From positions 1 to 64,000 of the IMG/VR virus record IMGVR_UViG_3300033143_002183: 64,000 nt of DNA. The stretch is one strand, 5' to 3'. The notes under the pieces were generated by a model, which saw nothing but the letters and a program-made list of their open reading frames with translations, made no database searches and had not been told where the DNA came from. Source of the stretch: a virus. The translations under genes were made by a program, and so were the position numbers. Positions 2,606-63,737 of the stretch are shown here, piece after piece (the first letter of the stretch is position 1; each line of letters starts with the position of its first letter).

Positions 2606-2920
2606 ATGAAGAAATCAGATACAGAATTATTCTCACAAGAGCCAACATTCCCTGAATCTAGCCGTATTGATATTATTGGACAGAATGGAAATGAAGGTTT
2701 ACATTATAAACCCACAACCTTTGCTATACAGTCAATATTTTCATATGGTTGGGACTTTGTTGGATTTGATGATAAAGATGGCTTACGTGAAGTTTTTAAA
2801 ACCGAAGCAAAAGCTAAAAAAGAACTAAAAGAAATACTTGAATTTACAAACGATGCTCCGGAGGACTGGCGTATTATCCCTTATAACCCTTATGAGGACG
2901 AAACCTTTGCCAGATTCTAA
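2606..2920 (+). CDS. hypothetical protein, 104 aa
   Basis: I choose the ATG at 2606 (MKKSDTELF) over the upstream in-frame TTG at 2594, because GGAAA lies about 8 bases before it. The protein is acidic and soluble with a lysine-rich helix (TEAKAKKELKEI) near the C-terminus. No known domain. Confidence 0.65.
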   Translation: MKKSDTELFSQEPTFPESSRIDIIGQNGNEGLHYKPTTFAIQSIFSYGWDFVGFDDKDGLREVFKTEAKAKKELKEILEFTNDAPEDWRIIPYNPYEDETFARF

Positions 2921-3191
2921 ACCAGAATATAAAGAATTCTTTTGTAGTAAATGTCAAAAGTATAAAAAAGGCAGCTTGCTTGCATATAAACGTAAAAATC
3001 GTTCAGTATGTACTTCATGTACACTACCTATTAAAGAACAAGAACAATTAGGTATTTTAAGCCCTTATCAAAATGTAGAAAAAGGGCGAGCTTTAATAAA
3101 GCCTGTTGCTAATCCTTATAAAAAACCACTTACTAATTCTACATTACAAGCAATAACCGGAGAAACCCATGGCAGCAAGAAAACCTCTTAG
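2892..3191 (+). CDS. zinc-ribbon-like small protein, 99 aa
   Basis: Two CxxC knuckles 17 residues apart (FCSKCQ and VCTSCT) indicate a zinc ribbon; the rest is basic. The ATG at 2892 lies inside the upstream gene and gives a protein that starts shortly before the first Cys pair. The ribosome site is weak, so an earlier start at 2838 is possible. The 3' end overlaps the next gene by 23 bases. Function unknown. Confidence 0.55.
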   Translation: MRTKPLPDSKPEYKEFFCSKCQKYKKGSLLAYKRKNRSVCTSCTLPIKEQEQLGILSPYQNVEKGRALIKPVANPYKKPLTNSTLQAITGETHGSKKTS

Positions 3192-3351
3192 ACGCTTTAA
3201 GTTTACATATCAAACCGAATTCAGTTCAGATCATGATTATAAAAGAATTTTATATGCAACAACATCACAATCAGCCTGGACTAAATTTAATAACTATTGT
3301 GAAGAGCATAATATTAAACTTCACGATGCCTCACTAGAATTATTAGGATAA
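3169..3351 (+). CDS. hypothetical protein, 60 aa
   Basis: Tiny basic protein (MAARKPLRRFKF...). A GGAG precedes the ATG at suitable spacing. It overlaps the end of the upstream gene in a different frame. No recognised domain. Confidence 0.55.
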   Translation: MAARKPLRRFKFTYQTEFSSDHDYKRILYATTSQSAWTKFNNYCEEHNIKLHDASLELLG

Positions 3352-3354
3352 CCC

Positions 3355-3564
3355 ATGATTGAATATATTAACTCTTTAACCACTATTGCAGTAGGTACTT
3401 ATTTTATAGCAGCATCAATTTGGGGGTACCCTCACATCAGCTTGTTTTTACAAGATAATGAAACTAGTGGAATGAAAACTATGCTAATCGCACTATGTGT
3501 AATAGGAGTAGTTATGTTTACCTCAGGTATACTAGATTTTATTGAAATAGCGGAAAAATTATAA
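3355..3564 (+). CDS. small two-helix membrane protein, 69 aa
   Basis: Two hydrophobic stretches are visible, at about residues 9-30 and 42-62, separated by a short polar loop (LQDNETSG). This predicts an inner-membrane hairpin. Its stop overlaps the ATG of the MoxR ATPase by one base, so the two are translationally coupled. Function unknown. Confidence 0.65.
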   Translation: MIEYINSLTTIAVGTYFIAASIWGYPHISLFLQDNETSGMKTMLIALCVIGVVMFTSGILDFIEIAEKL

Positions 3565-4637
3565 TGGAAATTACATTACATAATGCAGCAGCTGCAGTAC
3601 GTGATATCATGCGAGCCAACCTGGTTGCTAATTTAATTGGCTCACCCGGCATTGGCAAAAGTGATATTATTAAGCAGGTTGCTGAAGAATTTGAATTAAA
3701 AGTTATTGATATTAGATTGGCTCAATGTGATCCAACTGATTTAAATGGTTTTCCTACTCTTAGTGAAGATCGTTCCCGGTGCCACTACGCTCCACCGATC
3801 ACGTTCCCATTAGCAGATGATCCATTACCAATTAAAGAACCAGCAGTCTTAGACGAACTAGGGCGCACCATCAAGAAGCCTGTATATTATAAAGGTTGGT
3901 TACTCTTCTTAGATGAATTAACAAGTGCGCCTCCAATGGTGCAAGCTGCAGCATACAAAGTAATCCTTGATCGCCAAGTTGGTGAACATGATCTTCATGA
4001 AAAGGTTCGTATTGTAGCTGCAGGTAATAAAACAACAGATAAAGCTATTGTTCAACGTATGAGCACAGCTTTACAATCCCGGGTAATAACACTTGAAGTA
4101 ATTATTGACCTGGATGAATGGTTAATCTGGGCAGAGAAAGCCGGTATTGATAAGCGTATTATGTCTTATATTCAATTCCGACCTGATATGTTACATAAAT
4201 TTGATGCTAACCATAAAGACTTAACTTTCCCTTGTCCTCGTACATGGGAATTTGCTCATGGCTTACTGAAGATCTGGCGTGTAGTAACATTTCAGAATTT
4301 GATTGTATTAGCAGGAGCAGTCAGTAAAGGTGCTGCATCTGAGTTAATTGCATTCTGTCAAGTATATGATACTATACCTACACTTGAAAAGATGATAGCT
4401 GATCCACTTGGTGTACCAATTGATAATAGTAAAAAAGATCTCTTATTTGCTATTTGTTCATTAATTGGACAATCTTTTAATAAAGATAACAGCCAGGCAT
4501 TGATCTCAGTTATGGAACGCTTACCAATTGAATTCCGAGTTACAGCATGTCAAAACATTCTACGACGGGATCGTACTTTACAACGTGAGCCAAATTTAAA
4601 GACTTGGATCCGCGATAACTCTTCTGAATTATATTAA
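3564..4637 (+). CDS. MoxR-family AAA+ ATPase (N4 gp24-like)
   Basis: An AAA+ ATPase with Walker A GSPGIGKSD (residues 26-34), Walker B LLFLDEL (D117, E118) and a downstream sensor segment RIVAAGNKT. Length (357 aa) and its place directly before a VWA metalloprotein match the N4 gene pair gp24/gp25. MoxR proteins act as chaperone-like remodelers that work with VWA partners. The target in N4-like phages is not known to me. It is followed after nine bases by the VWA gene, indicating one operon and probably one complex. Confidence 0.85.
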   Translation: MEITLHNAAAAVRDIMRANLVANLIGSPGIGKSDIIKQVAEEFELKVIDIRLAQCDPTDLNGFPTLSEDRSRCHYAPPITFPLADDPLPIKEPAVLDELGRTIKKPVYYKGWLLFLDELTSAPPMVQAAAYKVILDRQVGEHDLHEKVRIVAAGNKTTDKAIVQRMSTALQSRVITLEVIIDLDEWLIWAEKAGIDKRIMSYIQFRPDMLHKFDANHKDLTFPCPRTWEFAHGLLKIWRVVTFQNLIVLAGAVSKGAASELIAFCQVYDTIPTLEKMIADPLGVPIDNSKKDLLFAICSLIGQSFNKDNSQALISVMERLPIEFRVTACQNILRRDRTLQREPNLKTWIRDNSSELY

Positions 4638-4646
4638 GGACCTGCC

Positions 4647-5768
4647 ATGTTACCTCAAGATAGAGCACTTGATCGTACTAAGATAGCTTTAATGACCTCT
4701 GAGTCTGCTTTCTTAGTTGCAATGGCTCTAAGTCTACATCATCATTTTGATGAGAGCGAAGAGACAGCATGCACTAATGGGGTATATGTTAAGTATAACC
4801 CAGACTTCTTCCTTAGTTTGCCTGAGAAGCAACGACTTACTCTGATGGTACACGAAGTATGGCATGTAGCTCTACTTCATAACTATAGAGGTAAAGGGAA
4901 GGACCACGAGAAGTATAACAGAGCAGCAGATTATACAAATAATCAACTTTTAAAAGACGCTGGCTTTGAACCTATACCTGGTTGGTTACAGGATGATAAA
5001 TATAAAGATATGAGTACTAATCAAATCTATAATTTATTACCTGATGAACCACCAAAAAATAATCCTATGGGAGGAGATATAGTAGCTCCCCCTGGAGGTA
5101 CAGAATCAGGACTTGCAGATGCAAAAGCTAAAGTTGAGCAACAAATCATTCAAGCACAAGTACAATCTGAATTAGCTGGGGATGCGCCCGGGTCTTTACC
5201 TGAGGAGCTGCAGCGTCAGATTAAAAAGTTATTGAATCCTGCATTACCATGGGAAGCAATCCTTGGTAGATTTATGCAAGATCAAGCCAAGAATGATTAC
5301 TCATGGGCCAGACCAAATAAGCGGTTTATGCCTGATTTCTATATGCCATCATTACATTCAGAACGATTAGAACATTTAACATTTGCCATTGATACTAGTG
5401 GCTCTGTTACAGATGACGACATGGTCGCAATGTTAACTGAGATTAATTATATCAAAGAAGTTATGCAGCCTAATCGCATGACTATACTTGATTGTGACAC
5501 TATTATACATAATGTATATGATGTTACAGATAGTGATGATATATTAGAATTAGAATTCACTGGAGGAGGAGGCACTAAATGTGCTCCTGTCATTGAATTC
5601 TGTGAAAAGCAGCATACAACAGCGTTGGTGTACTTCACTGATTTATATATGCGTGAGTACCCACATCCCATTACATTTCCATTATTATGGATCGTATACA
5701 ACAATCCCAATAGAACGAAAGTTAATATTGGGGAAATAACACATTATGATATTAAAGGTTCCAAATGA
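4647..5768 (+). CDS. VWA-like metallopeptidase-type protein (N4 gp25-like)
   Basis: Domain order: an N-terminal zincin-like region with HEVWH at residues 69-73, a low-complexity linker rich in Pro/Gly/Gln (about 132-190), then a von Willebrand A domain whose MIDAS motif DTSGS starts at D249. This is the DUF2201/VWA-like layout often found next to MoxR ATPases. The intact HExxH leaves proteolysis possible, but activity is unproven. It ends with TGA overlapping the next ATG. Confidence 0.82.
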   Translation: MLPQDRALDRTKIALMTSESAFLVAMALSLHHHFDESEETACTNGVYVKYNPDFFLSLPEKQRLTLMVHEVWHVALLHNYRGKGKDHEKYNRAADYTNNQLLKDAGFEPIPGWLQDDKYKDMSTNQIYNLLPDEPPKNNPMGGDIVAPPGGTESGLADAKAKVEQQIIQAQVQSELAGDAPGSLPEELQRQIKKLLNPALPWEAILGRFMQDQAKNDYSWARPNKRFMPDFYMPSLHSERLEHLTFAIDTSGSVTDDDMVAMLTEINYIKEVMQPNRMTILDCDTIIHNVYDVTDSDDILELEFTGGGGTKCAPVIEFCEKQHTTALVYFTDLYMREYPHPITFPLLWIVYNNPNRTKVNIGEITHYDIKGSK

Positions 5769-5944
5769 GTACAGATACAACAGAAATAAAAGAACATTAT
5801 GAATTACAAGTACAACTCCATGCTTCTATTGAGCTATGCAAAGAATGCTATGCAGCTCAGATATTAAATGGAAAACTACTTTGTACTCATGATGATCCTA
5901 CACCAATTAACTGCAATGTGCTAAAGGTACATGGAGCCTTCTAA
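5765..5944 (+). CDS. very small Cys-rich protein, 59 aa
   Basis: The ATG at 5765 overlaps the upstream stop (ATGA), and the stop overlaps the next ATG (TAATG), a classic coupled chain. The protein has four cysteines in its second half, including CKEC, and may bind zinc. It is highly acidic at the start (MSTDTTEIKEHYE). No recognised family. Confidence 0.65.
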   Translation: MSTDTTEIKEHYELQVQLHASIELCKECYAAQILNGKLLCTHDDPTPINCNVLKVHGAF

Positions 5945-6504
5945 TGGAATCAGGGCAAGCTAAAGATATACTGGATAAGTTACTCCATGATCTATATGAA
6001 GTACCTTTACATGGTGTCTATAATAATATAGCACTTATTGTCCAAGAAAACGCAGAAGTAATCCTTAATATACGAAATGACGATGTTGTACGTTATGTAC
6101 GATTTGAAAGTGGCATCTATTATAGCACCAACTTACCAAGCTATAAGGATAGAAAATCAATCCTATATGATACACAAATACCTAATCGCAATATGACTAT
6201 GCATGAGTCAATACGTGAACCACTAATGGTAGAAATACATGAGCGTACAGAACTCGAGCAAGAACAAAAAGCATGCGCCTATTACTTACGTACTTTATTA
6301 AATCAATGTAATTCATTACGTGATGTGCAAGCCCTCCTTCCGGGGGCTATCTGGAATCTTCTAGGTATAACAATAAAAACTGAGAGTATAGGCCCATTAA
6401 GCTATACCTCTGAAAATTTTGATAAAATCAAAGCAGAGCATGCCGAAGATGCTGCAATAATTAAAGAACGATTATTCTTAAACTTATTATTAAAAAAGGT
6501 ATAA
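5944..6504 (+). CDS. hypothetical protein, 186 aa
   Basis: Soluble protein coupled by TAATG to the gene before it. The first part has beta-strand character (VRYVRFESGIYYSTN). The second half is helical with many charged residues (RTELEQEQKACAYYL). No family recognised. Confidence 0.7.
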   Translation: MESGQAKDILDKLLHDLYEVPLHGVYNNIALIVQENAEVILNIRNDDVVRYVRFESGIYYSTNLPSYKDRKSILYDTQIPNRNMTMHESIREPLMVEIHERTELEQEQKACAYYLRTLLNQCNSLRDVQALLPGAIWNLLGITIKTESIGPLSYTSENFDKIKAEHAEDAAIIKERLFLNLLLKKV

Positions 6505-16336: not shown

Positions 16337-17080
16337 ATGTCAGATGTAATAAGTAATAAAAAAATCGTATTGGTTATGGGTAAGCCTACCACTGGTAAGA
16401 CTACCTCATTAATGAATATGGCAGATCAAGACCGTATGGTCTATCTGAATACCGATTTGAAAGATTTGCCATTTAAGAGCAAATTCAAAGAAGTAGATAT
16501 TGCTGACCCAAAAGTTGTATTAGCAGCTTTGGATCAAATTGAAGCAGCGGAAAATGTTGACGGTGGCGTGCTAGATACAATTACGTTCTTAATGAACCAA
16601 TTTGAACGGCAATACGTTGCAAACCACAAAAACAGCAAAGGTGTCCTTGACACTATGGGCGGTTGGGGTGAGTATGCAAAATTTTATCATGCAGTAATGA
16701 TGAAAATCAAAGCTGGAACGAAAAACTATGCTGTGATGGCACATGCTGCTGATGAAATGAATGAAAAAGACATGGTGCTTGAAACTAAAGTACCTGTCAA
16801 AGGTGCCGTAGGTAAGGTTGGTGTGGAAGCGGATTTCACAACAGTCATCTCTACCAAACGGATGAGCATTATTGCTCTCGAAGATTATGCAAATCCTTTA
16901 TTAACCTTCTCAGATGATGAGTTGGAAGATGGATTTAAGTACGTATTCCAAACTCGTATTGATGCTAATACCATTGGTGAGAAAATGCGTTCTGCAATAG
17001 GTCTTTGGGATCGCAAAGAAATGTTCATTAATAATGATCTAAGCTTGGTTTTCCAACGCTTGAATGATTATTACGCGTAA
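16337..17080 (+). CDS. RecA-like P-loop ATPase (N4 gp44-like)
   Basis: Walker A GKPTTGKTT (residues 15-23) and a Walker B-like strand GGVLDTITFLM, the pattern of phage AAA_24/Sak4-type ATPases. It lies between primase and SSB as in N4. Such proteins promote annealing or strand exchange with their cognate SSB; here this is inferred. AAGGACG precedes the ATG. Confidence 0.8.
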   Translation: MSDVISNKKIVLVMGKPTTGKTTSLMNMADQDRMVYLNTDLKDLPFKSKFKEVDIADPKVVLAALDQIEAAENVDGGVLDTITFLMNQFERQYVANHKNSKGVLDTMGGWGEYAKFYHAVMMKIKAGTKNYAVMAHAADEMNEKDMVLETKVPVKGAVGKVGVEADFTTVISTKRMSIIALEDYANPLLTFSDDELEDGFKYVFQTRIDANTIGEKMRSAIGLWDRKEMFINNDLSLVFQRLNDYYA

Positions 17081-17087
17081 GTAATTA

Positions 17088-17171
17088 GGGAAGGTAGTTT
17101 TAACAGAAGAACGCTGGCTAGGTAAATACCTGGCTTGATGCTGCGGGTATCGAATCCCGCCCTTCCCTCCA
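17088..17171 (+). tRNA. tRNA-like RNA with encoded CCA, anticodon not assignable
   Basis: Acceptor GGGAAGG/CCTTCCC (7 bp), D-arm GTTT/GAAC with 8-base loop, T-stem GCGGG/CCCGC, then discriminator T and CCA. Two points are abnormal. The T-loop has eight bases (TATCGAAT, one A more than TTCGAAT). The central hairpin is GCTAGGT/ACCTGGC around AAAT, not a 5-bp stem with 7-base loop, so no anticodon can be placed. A decayed tRNA or a tRNA mimic between the ATPase and SSB genes. Confidence 0.6.
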
Positions 17172-17197
17172 TTTTAATCAATAAACAAGGAAATTAA

Positions 17198-17929
17198 ATG
17201 CTTGATAATTTAAAATCTAATGATTCCATTGAACATGAAGGTGATTCATTAGGCGGTGGTTCTTATATCATTGCAACAGATACATATCGTTTGACTACTG
17301 ATATGGCTTATTTTGATAAGTCTAAAAATGGTGCTACCAGCTTCAATGTAGTATTGAAAGGTAAGAATGGCGAAACTGTAAAACAAACCTGGTGGGTAGC
17401 AAGTGGTAATGCGAAAGGCAACAAAAACTTCTACACAGATAAGAATGGTAAAGATCATTACTTACCTGATTTCTCATCAGCTAACAACTTCTGTTTACTA
17501 GCGTGTGGTAAAGAAATTTCTGCACTTAAGACTGAAGAAAAGCAAATCATGTTATATGATTTCACTGAACGTAAAGAAGTACCTACTAAGAAAATGGTAG
17601 CTATGGACGTACTTCAAACAGAAACTATTGTTGCAGTTGAAAAGCAAATTGTTGATAAGACAGTAGATGATGGTTCAGGTAACTATTTACCTACTGGTGA
17701 AACTCGTGAACAGAACCAAATCATGAAGACTTTCAGTGTTAAAGATAAGCGTTCAGCTGCAGAAGTACGCGCTGAATTGCCTGCTGAAGAAGCTTCATTC
17801 CATGATGATTGGGTTGAAAAGAACAAAGGCACTGTAAACGATCTGTCTACAGGTGTTGCTGCTGGTGGTACCGAAGGTGCTCCTGGTGATGCAGACACAG
17901 CTGGTGGTGAAACCAAAAGCTTGTTCTAA
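17198..17929 (+). CDS. single-stranded DNA-binding protein (N4 gp45-like)
   Basis: 243 aa, close to the N4 SSB in length and located after the primase and ATPase genes as in N4. An OB-like beta-rich N-terminal half (TYRLTTDMAYFDKS, NVVLKGKNGETV) is followed by an acidic Gly/Ala-rich tail ending KSLF. It has the AAGGAA ribosome site. In N4, SSB also activates host sigma70 RNA polymerase at late promoters; that role here is inferred from synteny. A long non-coding region follows at once. Confidence 0.78.
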   Translation: MLDNLKSNDSIEHEGDSLGGGSYIIATDTYRLTTDMAYFDKSKNGATSFNVVLKGKNGETVKQTWWVASGNAKGNKNFYTDKNGKDHYLPDFSSANNFCLLACGKEISALKTEEKQIMLYDFTERKEVPTKKMVAMDVLQTETIVAVEKQIVDKTVDDGSGNYLPTGETREQNQIMKTFSVKDKRSAAEVRAELPAEEASFHDDWVEKNKGTVNDLSTGVAAGGTEGAPGDADTAGGETKSLF

Positions 17930-18650
17930 ATATTTAGGTAGCTCCTAATAGGTTTTGTAAGTTTTGCCTATAAATAAACTTACAACTAAAGGTTTTGCTG
18001 ATTGTCCCATAAACAGTCAGTCGCGGTGGGTGCATATCTAAGGAGGGTACCTAGTGAGTGTAACTAGTGACTAACAGCCGCCAAATTCAAAGAGCATAAG
18101 GGCCGGAAACGCGACTGCAGAATAATAGCAAGCGAAACAATCTGGAATCCTTAATTTAGTACCCTATTCAAAGTTTTACTCCGCCTGATCCCAGCAGGTT
18201 ATTGGTTAGGTTGACTTGCTCCCGGCAAGGTCTGGTTGATCCGGGATACATCACTAGAGTTATTAACAGCAACTGTTACGAAATAATAGTAGTCATATAA
18301 CTTGTGTATTGAATGTGTAGTGTTAATTTCATACACCAGCGAGAGCATACTCACCCTGTTAAAACAAACCGTTTGCCACGTTAAGGCTTACGACTTCTTT
18401 TGATACGTGTAACAACGTGACAAAAAGGTTTTTGATATCTGTGCCTTAAACAGTTATTACGTTGGGTTTCGTCACAGCCTAAACGATGGTTATATTCGTA
18501 ACCAAGTTAATAGTGCGGCTTCTGCGGCTGCATTGTTAATCTTAAAGTATACTTGCAACAATAGGCTATTAAAATTGCACCCCATTGGGAACTGTCAAAA
18601 CAAGGTTTAAAGTCCCTGTAGTAGTTGTAAGTGTACTTTAACATTAACAA
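17930..18650 (+). ncRNA. large structured non-coding RNA (GOLLD/ROOL-like candidate)
   Basis: About 710 bases without a gene but dense with helices. Examples: TTAGG/CCTAA at 17934-17948; TTGTAAGTTT/AAACTTACAA at 17955-17964 and 17976-17985; AGGGTAC with GTACCCT (18044, 18159); TCCCGG/CCGGGA (18220, 18241); TAACAG/CTGTTA (18264-18278); TTAAGGC/GCCTTAA (18381, 18443); a 12-bp helix 18508-18519 with 18527-18538; and an 18-bp helix with two G-U pairs closing the 3' domain, 18542-18559 with 18624-18641. Giant phage RNAs of this size often lie near tRNA genes, as here. Family membership is not proven. Confidence 0.7.
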
Positions 18651-18663
18651 ATAAGGAATACAT

Positions 18664-19161
18664 ATGTACGAAATGATTGCCTATATAGGCACAAAATTGA
18701 TTAAAGCAACACCAATGACTCGGTTACACTATAATATTTTTCGTGGTTGGGATTTACCTGATGATGAGAATGGGGATGATAAAGGCTATTTAGTTGAATA
18801 CACTGATGGTGGTGAACCAAATACAAATGATTATGATGGCTATGTTTCATGGTCACCAAAAGAGCAATTTGATAATGCTTATAAAAAAACAAATGGGTTA
18901 CCTTTTGGTTTAGCAGTTGATGCAGCCAAATTAGGATTCCGTATTGCTCGTAATGGGTGGAATGGTACAGGTATGTTTGCTTTCTTTGTACCGTCAAGCG
19001 TATTTAAAGTTAATCGTGCACCTTTATTAGGTATATTTGATGAAGGTACCGAAATTAAATACCGTGCTCATATGGATCTCGTAGCTGCTGATGGTACCGT
19101 GGGTACTTGGTCACCTAGTAATAGTGATACTTTAGCAACTGATTGGTATATTGTGGAGTAA
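18664..19161 (+). CDS. Tad2-like anti-Thoeris protein (DUF2829) with N-terminal phage domain
   Basis: Residues about 80-165 match the DUF2829 pattern: FGLAVDAAKLGFRIARNGWN, GMFAFFVP, APLLGIF, ADGTVGTW and DWYIVE. DUF2829 proteins include Tad2, which binds the nucleotide signal made by Thoeris ThsB and so blocks this defence. The N-terminal 75 residues (KATPMTRLHYNIFRGWDLP, GYVSWSPKEQF) are a separate domain common in phage small proteins. The gene follows the large RNA and has an AAGGAATA site. Activity against Thoeris is inferred from the family. Confidence 0.82.
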   Translation: MYEMIAYIGTKLIKATPMTRLHYNIFRGWDLPDDENGDDKGYLVEYTDGGEPNTNDYDGYVSWSPKEQFDNAYKKTNGLPFGLAVDAAKLGFRIARNGWNGTGMFAFFVPSSVFKVNRAPLLGIFDEGTEIKYRAHMDLVAADGTVGTWSPSNSDTLATDWYIVE

Positions 19162-63246: not shown

Positions 63247-63737
63247 TACTTAATGACCTTACTAAGTAAACGTAGTTCTTGATCAGAGATATCACCTTCT
63301 ACTTCAAATGAAGTTGGGCGCTCACCTTGATCATTACATACCTTACGTAAAACTAATTGTAAATCAGCATCTACATCAAATGAGATAACTTCTTCATCAG
63401 CAAACTCTAAACTAACAATAGGGAGGGATACTACTGCTTCAGATACGCTATCAGAAGTTACTTCTGAATCAGAATCTGAATCCGCTGGCGCTACTTCAGA
63501 TTCTGATTCAGAACTAATTTCTGATACCTCCTCAGCATTAGCATTCCCCTTAGCTTCGCTAGTATCTTTCAACGTGCCATCCTTGTTTAAGGTTTTATCA
63601 ATTTCTTTGAATACTTGCTCTACCTCTGCAAGTTCTACTTCTACTCCTTTAACAGTAACTTCAACTGATTTATCTGCACCTGGTTTAGCAGGATCAACCT
63701 TAACTTCTACTTCTTCACTCTTCTTACTTTTACTCAT
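63246..63737 (-). CDS. acidic protein with Ser/Asp/Glu repeats, 163 aa
   Basis: Residues about 65-110 are low-complexity Ser, Glu and Asp. The C-terminal third is a small globular part (SFDVDADLQLVLRKVCNDQG). May be a protein that mimics DNA charge or binds a partner through its acidic tract; function unknown. Confidence 0.6.
   Translation of the reverse strand: MSKSKKSEEVEVKVDPAKPGADKSVEVTVKGVEVELAEVEQVFKEIDKTLNKDGTLKDTSEAKGNANAEEVSEISSESESEVAPADSDSDSEVTSDSVSEAVVSLPIVSLEFADEEVISFDVDADLQLVLRKVCNDQGERPTSFEVEGDISDQELRLLSKVIK

Follow-up and report, generated by a model that had tools for sequence, protein, structure and literature searches.

A gene-free gap behind the SSB gene of an N4-like phage as a candidate orphan RNA gene

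The gap and its neighbourhood

What does an N4-like phage carry in a long stretch of its replication module that holds no gene? The DNA analysed here (the window) is a 64-kb part of a 76,976-base IMG/VR virus record, and around the stretch in question lie the replication genes of an N4-like phage (Schitoviridae). The gene order is primase (phrog_2135), Sak4 (phrog_124), SSB (phrog_743), the gap and a Tad2-like gene (PF11195), which is followed by a small crAss001_48-like gene, a phosphoesterase and a DNA ligase. The features that delimit the locus are as follows:

17088-17171, + strand: tRNA-like element (Rfam tRNA model, 31.3 bits, cut-off 29; fold z -3.46)
17198-17929, + strand: SSB gene, the upstream neighbour of the gap, assigned by family match (phrog_743)
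17930-18663, + strand: gene-free gap and proposed RNA gene, exact ends approximate (no ORF above 51 aa, no Rfam match, no homologue)
18664-19161, + strand: Tad2-like gene, the downstream neighbour (PF11195, Thoeris anti-defence 2)

The first-pass annotation of this DNA had treated the interval as free of genes, and this holds on closer reading: the gap measures 734 nt and its longest open reading frame, with ATG, GTG or TTG allowed as start, is 51 aa. No gene-free stretch elsewhere in the 64-kb window is as long; the next-longest is 263 nt when the same ORF threshold is applied and 291 nt with a 60-aa threshold. No promoter or terminator above chance was found in the gap. When the whole gap is folded, z is -2.35 on the + strand and -0.68 on the - strand. 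The gene directly 3' of the gap is an anti-defence gene (the Tad2-like gene, PF11195, at 18664-19161), with a ribosome-binding site, AAGGA, at about 18654 and its ATG at 18664.

A nearby tRNA-like gene had also been reported. The element is real (31.3 bits), but it lies about 760 nt upstream of the gap with the SSB gene between them. It has a perfect acceptor stem, an encoded CCA and an 8-nt T loop, and its anticodon arm, which lacks a standard loop, folds into 8 bp capped by the tetraloop AAAU; ARAGORN finds it at a relaxed threshold only and reads the anticodon as the four bases "aaat". The true tRNA genes of the window are at 61.3 kb, 43 kb from the gap.

A structured 3' domain

The folding signal of the gap is confined to about 18320-18660, where the following features were located:

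18480-18655, + strand: strongly structured 3' domain (fold z -5.46; none of 200 shuffles folds as well)
18506-18540, + strand: 15-bp hairpin with 5 G-U pairs (arms 18506-18520 and 18526-18540), from the helix search and the fold
18533-18559, + strand: 5' arm of a 27-nt helix, uninterrupted for 18 bp at 18542-18559, partner 18624-18650
18624-18650, + strand: 3' arm of the same helix; it stops just short of the Tad2-like gene's ribosome-binding site

The 3' 176 nt of interest (18480-18655) fold to -53.2 kcal/mol, and the background against which this value can be judged was obtained from 726 same-size segments across the 64 kb, whose z values have a mean of -0.64 and a standard deviation of 1.36. 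In that scan the 3' domain reaches z values of -5.0 to -5.6 and, together with one other place, is the most extreme of the 726. The other, at 63361, was set aside as a serine-rich repeat in a minus-strand coding sequence, by reading of its letters.

An 18-bp helix closing the 3' domain had been described from the letters, and it is confirmed: positions 18542-18559 pair with 18624-18641, two of the pairs being G-U, and the helix grows to 27 nt (18533-18559 with 18624-18650) if one C-C mismatch is allowed. The hairpin that it closes is 118 nt long and has a loop of 64 nt. Among 400 dinucleotide shuffles an 18-bp helix arose in none, and a second helix of at least 15 bp arose in one. The 15-bp hairpin and the 27-nt helix have nucleotides in common, the outer 8 of the helix being covered by the hairpin's 3' arm, so that the two structures would compete locally. 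The reverse strand of the gap has no helix above 12 bp; the long helices and their G-U pairs are thus found on the + strand only, which argues for an RNA rather than a DNA cruciform. As judged from the folding of this single sequence, the 3' domain is convincingly structured at the RNA level.

The 5' part of the gap

Two features were considered in the remainder of the gap:

17955-17985, + strand: 10-bp hairpin TTGTAAGTTT/AAACTTACAA just 3' of SSB, from the helix search
18040-18165, + strand: proposed pseudoknot complementarities (letters present; z of the region +0.31 and +0.58)

The first-pass annotation pictured the whole gap as rich in helices. That picture fits the 3' part (z -5.46) but not the 5' 400 nt: there, the pseudoknot region included, folding is on a par with shuffled sequence (z +0.31 and +0.58), and the stretch 17930-18030 that holds the TTGTAAGTTT/AAACTTACAA hairpin has a z of -1.21, which is not significant. 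The pseudoknot had been proposed from AAGGA with TCCTT against AGGGTAC with GTACCCT. These complementarities are present in the letters, at 18040-18044/18148-18152 and 18044-18050/18159-18165 respectively, but they are short, they cross each other, and the folding of the region lends them no support. A missing folding signal is weak evidence against structure here, because an RNA family with a covarying pseudoknot in related phages (family A, below) shows none either: its member L138 has a z of +0.72 over its RNA. Any structure in these first 400 nt, the pseudoknot included, is putative.

This uneven distribution of the signal bears on the main rival to an RNA gene that spans the gap, namely that only the 3' domain works, as a cis element in the 5' leader of the Tad2-like mRNA in which the long hairpin is an RNase III processing site or a stabilising site, and that the rest is spacer. 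We regard this as rather unlikely. It would account for the limits of the folding signal (about 18320-18660), for a stem that ends few bases before the ribosome-binding site and for two overlapping hairpins that could switch, but it leaves some 500 nt as spacer, which phage genomes seldom retain (the next gene-free stretch in this one is below 300 nt at the 60-aa threshold), and in relatives the site is kept for RNA genes irrespective of the gene that comes next (below). Less probable again, and in our judgement distinctly unlikely, is that the gap is a DNA element (an origin or promoter region) or what is left of an RNA gene or an insertion after decay. The five G-U pairs of the 15-bp helix and the strand asymmetry favour RNA over a cruciform, and a relic is not expected to retain a z of -5.5, against which stand the weak signal in the 5' half, the lack of any homologue (next section) and, as also listed on this side, the lack of a promoter excess.

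Homologues and known RNA families

No homologue of the gap was found by blastn against phages and plasmids (INPHARED, PLSDB), nor by nhmmer and blastn among about 270 loci gathered as neighbours of Sak4, SSB, primase and Tad2; the three loci from around SSB in GTDB genomes held none either. Two exact core patterns gave one match each in IMG/VR, and both were rejected as homologues: the first falls within a coding gene, and neither is similar beyond the 18 bases. A single-sequence model of the 3' domain also returned no homologue. The single weak match to R2, at window 18528-18693 on the minus strand with an E value of 0.0013, was discarded, as it overlaps the 3' domain's own hairpin on the opposite strand. 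The models of the 3' domain and of family A link the gap RNA to nothing, and among the phages, plasmids and IMG/VR records searched, from which very close relatives may be missing, it appears to be a single orphan sequence. The earlier suggestion of a new family is therefore only partly upheld: the 3' domain is convincingly structured as RNA and the corresponding site of relatives holds structured RNAs, but this does not make a family in the proper sense, since the gap RNA is one sequence without homologues and the structure of its 5' part is putative.

The other suggestion, that the gap belongs to the GOLLD/ROOL class, is not borne out. With the Rfam gathering score the whole window has no GOLLD or ROOL match, and with E<=10 no Rfam family, these two included, matches the gap in 17060-18800, so that it cannot be recognised as GOLLD or ROOL. 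GOLLD is about 800 nt long, compared with at most 734 nt for the gap, and has a universally conserved 3' region. GOLLD, ROOL and OLE are large RNAs that form multimers, GOLLD assembling into an RNA nanocage, and GOLLD and ROOL occur in phages and prophages near tRNAs, their function being unknown (PMC12286853). They often lie near tRNA genes (PMC12286853). The gap is like them in being large, phage-borne, gene-free and obscure in role, but it matches neither in Rfam sequence or structure, and it lies in an N4-like replication module with only the aberrant tRNA-like element nearby. That the gap represents a divergent form of GOLLD, ROOL or some other described large RNA family is very improbable: the similar size, the phage origin and the tRNA-like element would suit it, but not the failure of every Rfam model at E=10 or of the 3'-domain and family A models to link the gap to anything.

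Three further identities were tried and rejected. For a tmRNA, standard or permuted, ARAGORN and Rfam were negative and the gap has no tmRNA features and no sequence match; for a group I intron, RF00028 had no match and the gap is intergenic and does not interrupt a gene; and for family A, the pseudoknot-domain model R1 finds its three builders only and not the window. The same RF00028 and tmRNA models do find members in related phages (L154 and L156 for the former, L004 for the latter).

The site behind SSB in related phages

In the isolates examined, RusA or another gene comes after SSB, and gaps there do not exceed about 130 nt. A gap of at least 300 nt behind SSB is present in about 10 of 139 distinct SSB loci, where the 139 are those with at least 300 nt downstream of SSB and a gap was counted by either of the ORF criteria used. 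What fills the slot differs among the phages. In the N4-like contig L004 a permuted tmRNA (RF04321, 127 bits) lies at 5670-6068, directly 3' of SSB, and ARAGORN reads its tag peptide as ANDNSYAPVAMAA; this is the same slot in a related phage, but the gap of the window lacks tmRNA features. L030 has a 536-nt gene-free stretch in the slot with a z of -3.6 and no match in Rfam. The flanks of L004 and L030 are alike (SSB on one side, then dUTPase-like and RuvC-like genes, by reading of translations), and yet their slot RNAs are unrelated.

Family A is a third kind of occupant, a large RNA in the same slot with a conserved H-type pseudoknot at L138 1429-1516, L145 3769-3856 and L137 2145-2232. Its pseudoknot has 8 pairs changed on both sides, a result reached in none of 500 shuffles and with little or no support when the pairing is slid by 1-3 columns, in a test on three sequences whose structure was drawn by eye on those same sequences. 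In L138 and L145 a 3' region beside a tRNA is likewise shared, at 86% identity. The family A model misses the window. Further gene-free stretches lie in the slot in L166, with tRNAs, and in L200.

From these comparisons we think it somewhat probable that the position behind SSB is a slot for accessory RNA genes and that the gap, read on the + strand, is an orphan occupant of it. The gap is read as an RNA gene because it is gene-free, is of exceptional length and has a structured 3' domain and + strand helices, and because its kin use the same slot for RNA genes, which is an argument by position and not by homology. In such an RNA gene, the gap RNA would be co-transcribed with the SSB/replication operon, and a double-strand cutter, for example host RNase III, could cleave the long 3' stem and so part the RNA from the Tad2 mRNA. 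The freed RNA, of about 0.6-0.7 kb, might then work in trans during infection, as a stable accessory RNA. Its role may be in host takeover or counter-defence; this is a guess of low confidence, offered because the next gene is a Tad2-like anti-defence gene and because the slot can hold a tmRNA.

More speculatively, and with considerable doubt on our part, N4-like phages could have a slot dedicated to large RNA genes that are unrelated to one another and for the most part undescribed, the gap RNA being a new class among them, and this slot could be an RNA counterpart of anti-defence islands. If one position in a large phage family repeatedly holds unrelated large RNAs, it is a place to find more of them, and, if this is true, a slot beside anti-defence genes and a tmRNA would give a comparative handle on the role of large phage RNAs. 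In this respect the slot is more telling than the gap RNA alone, which is an orphan.

Other observations on the related contigs

Repeated GGGTGAGATGCCC hairpin-like motifs are common to the large gene-free gaps behind SSB in L150, L169 and L172, and, when GGGTGTGAGGCCC is counted along with GGGTGAGATGCCC, repeated hairpin-like motifs of one or the other kind are found behind SSB in L150, L169, L171 and L172 and in L166 at 2868-3684. Another motif, GACAGCCGGGAAAGACCGGC, is shared by gene-free stretches at several genome positions, in L200, L174, L032 (5629-6043) and L044 (7728-8046). Group I introns (RF00028) are present in the N4-like contigs L154 (815-1132) and L156 (2006-2323), and the L156 stretch matches L176 (1021-1377) at 73% identity over 264 bases.
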